The position numbers and the translations under genes were made by a program. A DNA stretch of 64,000 nt from the NCBI GenBank assembly GCA_030141605.1, contig JAQGDQ010000313.1:62001-126000 (forward strand), written 5' to 3'. This DNA comes from Tubiluchus corallicola. Taxonomy: Eukaryota; Priapulida; Priapulimorpha; Priapulimorphida; Tubiluchidae. The notes beneath the pieces are model-generated. The model saw only the letters and a list, made by a program, of their open reading frames with translations. It ran no database searches and was not told the DNA's origin. Positions 3,556-49,052 of this stretch are shown in pieces; within the stretch, counting starts at the first letter, position 1; each line of letters starts with the position of its first letter.

Positions 3556-6500
3556 TTAAAATCTCAACGTCCATTCTGAATTAGCAGGTACATTTATGTT
3601 GTAAATAATCAGTGTAGCATCTCCAGCATTGTAATCGTAATCGTAATGATTATTTCCATTCACCTGTGAAAATAATGAGATCGTAATCACTAATCAGTCT
3701 AAAAGTTCTATTACAGAATTCGCTAATCACTTTCTTAGATGCAGAAGATATTGTTCCTATTTTATTCAATACATTTTTATTTGGGCAGTGGCACAGTGCC
3801 TTGACAGTTAACAGTAGCAGTGATGGGCAGGTGGCTCCGCCTTTTGGTGAAATGTAATAAAAGTGAAAGGAAATTCTGATTTTTGGGCAGGAAGTTCTAG
3901 AGGTCAAAGGAGAAGGAAAAAGTCAATAGTAATGAGACTATTTAATAGTTATATACAATTACTCCATAAAAATTTTCCGTAAAAAACAAAGTCAGTGTAA
4001 GCACGATTGCAGGTGTTGATTTTTTGATAAAACCCGAGGGTTAAATTATGACCGAAACGTCACAGAAGTACTGAACAATTACAATTTCTAAAGTTGGGCA
4101 ATGACTGAATTTGAGGTTAAAACGTATTGTAGAAGACAGACATATTGTAGTTACTTCTGCTCTCTATTTTCATAAGAAGCAAAAATGGCTCACCTGGACT
4201 CCAGAAGTCGATTTCACGCCAAAAATTCGGACAGTTCCGAATGTCTTTGAAGCCATGCCAGAATATCCATCGTTATTTACCGTAGTTGTCATAAAGCCCT
4301 GTAAAATATGACGTCATTTACGAAAAAATATGCATTTCTTCAACTCGCCTTTTTAATGTTTTATTCTTTGCTTCAGTGTTTATCTTTTTTCCTGTTTTCT
4401 TTGTTTTCTTCTTCATCATCCTTTTCTACCATTCTCCTTCCTTCCTTCCTTTCATTCTTTCTTTTTTCCTTTCTTTTTCTTTACTTCTATGTTCTTTTCT
4501 AGACCTAGACCTCTCTTTCTGTACTTCATCCTTTTTATCTCGCCGGGCAATCTTTTTTCCTTTCTTACATTATTTTTTCCGAAATGGTTTTCGTTCAAGG
4601 GCTCTACTAAAATCGCTACTTGTTCTTCTTCTTCTTCTTGGGGAATGATCTCTTGAAAAAAGCCTAAGGCCCTGCGAGTTGACAATGTAAAGTCACGAAA
4701 CTCCGCAAAATATACTAGAACGAATTTTACATCGACTGACTGAGTTGCGGGCTCAATCCGCCATTTTGGACCCAAGATGGCGGCAATAATACCATTTCAG
4801 AAGAAACCTTCGCTAATTCACAACGGCTGATTATGAAACTTTGCTAGAAGAAGAAGAATGAGTTGCGCGCCGATTGACGAGTCAGATTTTCGATTAGTCC
4901 TCTTGAATGACTGGTGGTGATAACATCATACTAGTGGTGATAACATCATTTTCCAAATAGGCCCTATTCTCTCTCTCTTGCCACACGAGCGCCGTTTGCC
5001 TTGTGCGGCTCGGTGCCGATGTTCAGCTGTTTTCAATTTCGGAATTTCTAACATCGGCTTGTACGGAAGTGAGAGTACGGCAATACATATTGCAAAGATG
5101 TTATTTTTGATTTGACTATTTGACAAGTATTAAGGACTGGCCTTGAGAAAAAGCAGTTTTTCTTTCAATTTTTCTTTCCTTTAACAACTGTATAACACCA
5201 TATGTTCTCTTCGAAAATGCTTCTCCGGCGTTCTAGCAGTTCAAAAACTCTCCCCGGCGCATCGCCCCCCCTCCTCCGAGCGTCCTCACACCCCTCGCGT
5301 CCCCGGCCTCGCTTAGGCTGAAATAGGCCATGTTTCCAAATAAGCCTCCTATGGCTCCACCATTTCACCATGAATCAGCATGAAAGTTGATGGAAACGCA
5401 CTAGAATGAATTCTGCATTAACAGAGTCAGATATTCGGTTTGACGTCATGAATTCAAGATGGTGCCATTGACGACCGTTTTCTAATAAACTTAAGAACCT
5501 AAACCTAAATTTAAACCTGCAAAACGAATATGCACCAGAACAAATTTCACATCTGTTGGCGGAGCTCGAGTCTAACTTTTTCATACAGCTACTAACTATC
5601 AAATGTTACGTAACATGTCATTGTGGTTCATATCCATATCACTCTAAATACAATCGAAAAAAGGTATGACTCTTCTCTTTGAATTTGTTCTTGTGTTAAA
5701 TAGCCACAAATAAATTTCCATAAATAATTACCACAGAAAAGCAGAGGCGCTTTACATGTATTTAAACCTTTACGAATTTGAATTCAGTTATTTCAAATAA
5801 AAATTATGAAAATATTTGCTTGCATAAACTTACATTTTCCACGGTATATGTTGCATGGAAATAGTTTCCATTTTCGATGCTGTCTGAAAAGCAGAAGGAA
5901 GAAGTTTTAGTATTATTAGGTAATATTTTTTGTAATGAATATAGATGTGTGTGTGTGGGGGGGGGTGCGTGCGTGCGTGCGTGTGTGCGTGTGTGTGTTA
6001 ATTTTACAAGCTGTAAACTTAAAAAGGCAAAAATAAACAACATCCAGTTTACGATGAATGTAATACATTCACATTTGCAGTCTTTTCAAGTGAATTATAT
6101 GCTGCCAACTTATTTTTGATCGTTTTTTCTTTCACTTATAAGTACGAATTATGTTAATGGTGTACCTATTGAATCTCCATCGTCATAGAAAAGAGAACCT
6201 GTCGCAGAGTTCACCTCATCCAAAGCAATTATCAAACCAAATGGAAGGTATCGGCTGTCAAAATGCAAAAGAAAAGCTAATAAGACTCGCATTACACAAG
6301 CTTTCTTTTTTGAAACTAAGCAATTACAAAATTTGTATTTTGAATTAGTGTTAAGTTAGAACTAGAACGTAATGTTTTTCGATCCGGCATGTTCTACTTG
6401 TTCATTTCTAAAGTTAACGGTTCCCATTAGACAACGTTCATTGTTATCATGATCCTTTTTTTGTAAACATTTAGAATACCATTGTTTTGGGCGATCCATT

Positions 6501-49052: not shown

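Follow-up and report, generated by a model that had tools for sequence, protein, structure and literature searches.

Two tandem GH31 genes with different numbers of trefoil domains

The locus raises the question of how two neighbouring GH31 genes came to differ by a single trefoil domain, and in which of the two the number changed. The stretch of DNA analysed, 64,000 nucleotides long and referred to here as the window, corresponds to positions 62001-126000 of contig C751 in the genome. Both genes are read from the minus strand. Gene A (3556..22201) is a maltase-glucoamylase-like GH31 gene of 24 exons encoding 1030 aa, whose product starts with a hydrophobic leader and has four trefoils at its N-terminus. 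Its tandem paralogue, gene B (26066..49052), has 23 exons encoding 973 aa, with three trefoils. A six-frame self-comparison gave a one-to-one series of exon matches between roughly 22.2-3.5 kb and 49.0-26.0 kb. The first exons (1-4 in A, 1-3 in B) were placed manually on the reading frames, and the remaining exons were found by a splice-site search seeded on matches between A and B. The exon coordinates given in a preliminary description of this DNA agree with the resulting models to the base.

In gene A, exon 1 (22069..22201) encodes the hydrophobic leader and the first half of trefoil 1, exon 2 (19789..19933) the second half of trefoil 1 and the first half of trefoil 2, exon 3 (19293..19455) the second half of trefoil 2 and the first part of trefoil 3, and exon 4 (16879..17114) the remainder of trefoil 3 together with all of the GH31-proximal trefoil 4. 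Exon 1 (48917..49052) and exon 2 (46966..47107) of gene B carry the same parts as their namesakes in A. Twenty GH31 exons complete each gene, reaching down to 3556 in A (exons 5-24) and to 26066 in B. Pfam PF00088 was found above cut-off in four stretches of A and three of B, in agreement with the trefoil numbers first described, and three GH31 domains (PF01055, PF21365 and PF13802) were over cut-off in both. The two genes had also been said to share every GH31 intron, and this holds: start phases are equal in all 20 GH31 exons and lengths in 19, the last exon being the only one to differ (108 vs 111 nt). No third copy was found inside the window or within 10 kb on either side.

A mosaic exon lacks one whole repeat

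The difference lies in exon 3 of gene B (44084..44308), which is a mosaic of the second half of trefoil 2, similar to A exon 3, and the proximal trefoil, similar to A exon 4. This exon had been read as a fusion of the two A exons, and the informative sites bear this out. To the left of the end of PWCFY, 16 sites are for A exon 3 and 3 for exon 4, whilst to the right 19 are for exon 4 and 6 for exon 3 (Fisher p = 1.7e-4, from a hand-set alignment with a switch point picked post hoc, for which the p value is uncorrected). With lengths of 163 nt for A exon 3, 236 nt for A exon 4 and 225 nt for B exon 3, gene B lacks 174 nt, the 58 codons previously reported, together with intron 3 of A (17115..19292; 2178 nt, phase 0), which has no counterpart in B. 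The missing unit is one complete repeat, the trefoil cysteines read from the proteins being 6+6+6+4 in A and 6+6+4 in B. The frame is preserved, since start and end are in phase 2 for B exon 3 and equally for A exons 3 and 4 taken as a unit. Exon models, pairwise alignments and informative sites thus support an in-frame change of domain number at the PWC segments.

The motif proposed to recur in successive trefoils, PWC(F/Y)Y..TG, stands only in its first part. PWC(F/Y)Y recurs, but the ..TG ending is not common to every trefoil: A exon 3 has PWCFYPAG and A exon 4 PWCYYNSTG, against PWCFYPTG in B. The PWC segments of A exons 3 and 4 remain alike at 16/20 nt, which is compatible with the unequal exchange suggested earlier; however, the footprint is too old for such an exchange to be distinguished from a deletion of some other kind.

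A trefoil exon of B that is simply missing from the model or the assembly would make the difference an artefact, and we find this scarcely credible. The window contains no N. Moreover, six-frame ORFs of at least 15 aa were scanned, with no filters, using a profile of the seven trefoils of A and B, and no trefoil-like reading frame was found in B intron 2 (44309..46965), the interval named beforehand as a place for an extra exon; a hidden trefoil exon in B is therefore rejected. Elsewhere the scan gave nothing beyond the known exons except noise (E 0.89 at best). A separate exon also cannot account for halves resembling A exon 3 and A exon 4 within one open frame.

The A/B pair is old

The pair had been described as young, and this part of the preliminary description finds no support. 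Over 804 codons of the GH31 part, pS between A and B is 0.63 and dS about 1.36, with an amino-acid identity of 84%. The introns of A have no match to those of B at E <= 1e-3, and are thus no guide to the direction of change. Because silent sites are near saturation and intron similarity is absent, the pair is old, and a recent duplication is rejected. Nor is the sharing of GH31 introns a sign of youth, since 13/16 tested junctions are also common to a 56%-identical gene, C, described below. The trefoil part (167 codons) has a pS of 0.75, beyond correction, and an identity of 57.5%; this low identity goes with weaker constraint rather than with a clearly greater age.

The extent of silent divergence between A and B varies from one GH31 exon to another (permutation p = 0.0002). 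It is lowest in exons 6 and 7, where 8/39 and 10/48 identical-residue degenerate codons differ, vs 316/729 overall. Old partial conversion tracts are possible, but the longest stretch free of silent differences is of ordinary length (p = 0.29), and we draw no conclusion from this pattern.

Relatives elsewhere in the genome and their introns

A search of the genome (343.5 Mb, 2344 contigs) used the trefoil family and the trefoil arm of A as queries and scored only the best candidates, so that other copies could have escaped it. This yielded gene C on contig C419, in which a minus-strand copy has its first codon at 407006 and GH31 similarity extending to 388633; A exons 22-24 had no clear match in this copy. 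A second, inverted copy on the plus strand (378891-387604) comprises the first half only. The two are 94.8 to 97.6% identical over their three longest pieces and identical over 679 nt of the arm, which has four trefoils in four exons, all four above the PF00088 cut-off. The copies (375001-411259 of C419; loci L027-L030) sit near the contig end, and either the inverted duplication is recent or the assembly has joined two haplotypes. Two further genes, E (C1776) and F (C1060), show a single trefoil each in the 30 kb examined of each. By reading, gene E has a hydrophobic segment before its trefoil, as in a membrane-anchored enzyme. In the trefoil of gene F (L032, 5347-5550), an insert of 24 residues lies in the stretch from the fifth to the sixth cysteine. 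In the GH31 part, A and B are identical at 674/805 residues and A and C at 391/699, and a GH31 tree split A+B from C, E and F with a support of 100. Relatives were also sought in viral contigs, with no pattern match, and in prokaryote genomes, where none of 9 pattern matches was confirmed.

The introns of A and C differ sharply in conservation between the two parts of the protein. Among the GH31 junctions from 5/6 to 20/21, 13 of 16 are at the same place and in the same phase; in the exceptions only the donor is in place (14/15), the intron is absent (13/14) or the position is one nucleotide off (19/20). By comparison, the four trefoil-region introns of A (1/2 to 4/5) all fall at positions where C has no intron. 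As C keeps 13/16 GH31 junctions and 0/4 trefoil-region introns, the shared GH31 introns are the family's conserved background and the arm its rearranged part. Within A, moreover, the arm introns differ in their position in the trefoil: one is in phase 1, the next in phase 2 and two nucleotides upstream of the first, and intron 3 in phase 0, a further fourteen nucleotides upstream of intron 2. Introns 2 and 3 of A show no similarity to one another.

Direction of the change

We infer that the direction of the change was loss in gene B, and that recombination was its mechanism. Probably the ancestor of A and B had four trefoils, as A and C still have, and trefoil 3 was lost from B when an in-frame deletion fused exons 3 and 4. 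This deletion, of about 2.4 kb (roughly 19406 to 17049 in A coordinates), would postdate the A/B duplication and have its ends in the similar PWC segments of exons 3 and 4. Intron 3 and the adjoining ends of both exons would have gone, and with them one complete trefoil repeat and its six cysteines; the frame would have been kept and a single fused, phase-symmetric (2-2) exon 3 left. Loss in B is favoured because C, which lies outside A+B, has four trefoils and because the second trefoil of A (A-T2) pairs with that of B (B-T2).

This pairing was examined with the two trefoil halves joined. The topology with A-T2 and B-T2 together and A-T3 outside was the best of three in all eight models. In a tree of 16 trefoils (ultrafast bootstrap; the 24-residue insert was cut from the gene F trefoil and 4 residues from that of gene E), which is weakly supported apart from the pairs named here, A-T2 joined B-T2 with 83 and A-T4 joined B-T3 with 98, the latter pair then grouping with C-T4 (87). 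A-T1 and B-T1 stood against the rest with 86.

The opposite course, a gain in A, is in our judgement unlikely. Here the ancestor would have had three trefoils, and a tandem duplication that began in mid-exon 2, spanned intron 2 and ended in the PWC segment of exon 3 would have given A both its third trefoil and a new intron. The first half of A-T3 is indeed close to that of A-T2 (18/27 residues, with EQGCYDR in both, vs 17/27 between A-T2 and B-T2), and for this half the protein model favours A-T2 with A-T3, by 1.0 log unit. The nucleotides of the same half prefer A-T2 with B-T2 by 5.4 log units, and single-half trees are too short to decide the topology. With the halves joined, the gain topology is worse than loss in 8/8 models, by 2.3 to 10.4 log units, but AU tests do not reject it (p 0.05 to 0.32), which counts against loss. 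A fresh copy would be expected to keep the place of intron 2, whereas intron 3 differs from it in both phase and position, and the two introns are without similarity. Moreover, since C has four trefoils, a gain in A needs a second, independent gain.

Because E and F show a single trefoil each, the simplest count has one expansion of the array before A, B and C; with one loss in B thereafter, this takes the fewest changes. It is a different matter if the arrays of A/B and of C multiplied separately and exchange or conversion scrambled their history, in which case C would say nothing of the ancestral number. We hold this to be improbable. The absence of common trefoil-region introns (0/4, against 13/16 tested in GH31) speaks for it and suggests that the array of C may have been rearranged or built separately, and C-T2 and C-T3 are placed with supports of only 16 to 55. 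On the other hand, C-T1 joins T1 of A and B, albeit weakly (69). The fourth and fifth cysteines also have a CxxC spacing in all eight arm trefoils of A, B and C, that is, those ahead of the proximal one. This spacing is missing from the three proximal trefoils and from the single trefoils of E and F, which favours one origin of the arm.

Loss of one trefoil by an exon-fusing deletion, in an old pair, is an ordinary kind of event. What it offers is a change of domain number in tandem paralogues whose place (exon 3/4) and size (one whole repeat, six cysteines) can be stated, and whose likely direction follows from an outgroup within the same genome. Its added interest comes from that outgroup, from the contrast between arm and enzyme introns and from the pattern of sugar sites.

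The enzyme part and the trefoil sugar site

The GH31 part is of the maltase-glucoamylase (MGAM) type, the best PDB matches of B being 9kz6, 2qly and 3lpo. Aspartates at positions 443 and 542 of human MGAM are kept in B (alignment with 2qly) and in A (A/B alignment); we take these to be the nucleophile, in WIDMNE, and the acid/base residue, in WLGDN, respectively. From their domains and this conserved pair, A and B are predicted to be GH31 alpha-glucosidases of the MGAM, sucrase-isomaltase (SI) and GAA type.

In human TFF peptides the sugar site is made of Asp/Asn and Trp side chains, according to PMC7221086. Alignment with TFF1 places the Asp/Asn before the second cysteine and the Trp before the sixth. 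Both Asp and Trp are present in 3/3 arm trefoils of A and 2/2 of B. The proximal trefoils A-T4 and B-T3 keep the Asp, with Thr (A) or Ile (B) in place of the Trp. Gene C shows the reverse, its arm trefoils having Ser, Gln and Phe for Trp and its proximal trefoil both Asn and Trp. As the trefoil missing from B (A-T3) has both sugar-binding side chains, A may possess three putative glycan-binding modules and B two; the loss of a trefoil in B would have taken the intact Asp/Trp sites from three to two with the catalytic part untouched. The arms of A and B are thus most likely a multivalent glycan-binding device of a secreted alpha-glucosidase, as judged from their residues.

The six-cysteine trefoil motif is given as CX9-10CX9CX4CCX10C, with adjacent fourth and fifth cysteines, in PMC3146476. 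The arm trefoils have six cysteines but depart from this motif, the fifth lying two residues later (CxxC). The proximal trefoil is without the first and fifth cysteines, and the C-terminal trefoil of MGAM appears alike.

Comparison with known systems

MGAM and SI have a trefoil before each of their catalytic GH31 units. A and B resemble them in the trefoil adjoining the GH31 unit, in the catalytic Asp positions and, for B, in the best PDB matches. Instead of an anchor they have, by reading, a hydrophobic leader; they also differ in their one GH31 unit and in the two or three extra trefoils ahead of the proximal one. GAA likewise combines a trefoil and a GH31 unit, one of each, and its trefoil is reported to hold isomaltose (PMC7221086); it has no trefoil array, however, and scores lower with B than MGAM and SI do. 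Repeated trefoils, as in the arm of A and B, occur among TFF1-3 and the frog peptides, and the TFFs have the Asp/Asn and Trp sugar site. TFF2 has been proposed to stem from a domain duplication, and some frog peptides carry four or more trefoils (PMC3146476). Unlike the arm, TFFs are stand-alone peptides with adjacent CC and no attached enzyme. Among the literature matches listed, we recognised no description of GH31 enzymes with trefoil arrays, which is not proof of absence.

These genes represent GH31 enzymes whose trefoils number three or four and whose count of intact sugar sites, by sequence, varies between paralogues, and this difference gives a handle on the role of the extra trefoils in a digestive-type enzyme. 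A more speculative idea, which we entertain with some doubt, is that the array is a repeatedly rebuilt, multivalent lectin arm that might hold secreted maltases at glycan surfaces, replacing a membrane anchor. It draws on the opposite placing of the sugar-site Trp in A and B (arm) and in C (proximal trefoil), and on array introns that are entirely different in C and A although most GH31 introns are retained. If true, the loss of a trefoil in B would be a step in the tuning of valency.

Other features of the window

About eight imperfect TTAGGG units lie at 1193-1240 of the window, about 63 kb from the contig start. A single weak tRNA match at 57937-58007 (29.7 bits against a cut-off of 29), which ARAGORN did not find, is possibly a tRNA-derived repeat. 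Finally, a tandem array at 59620-59840 is built on a 16-base unit around TGGCGAACTGTACTAG, with higher-order periods of 35 and 83 bases.
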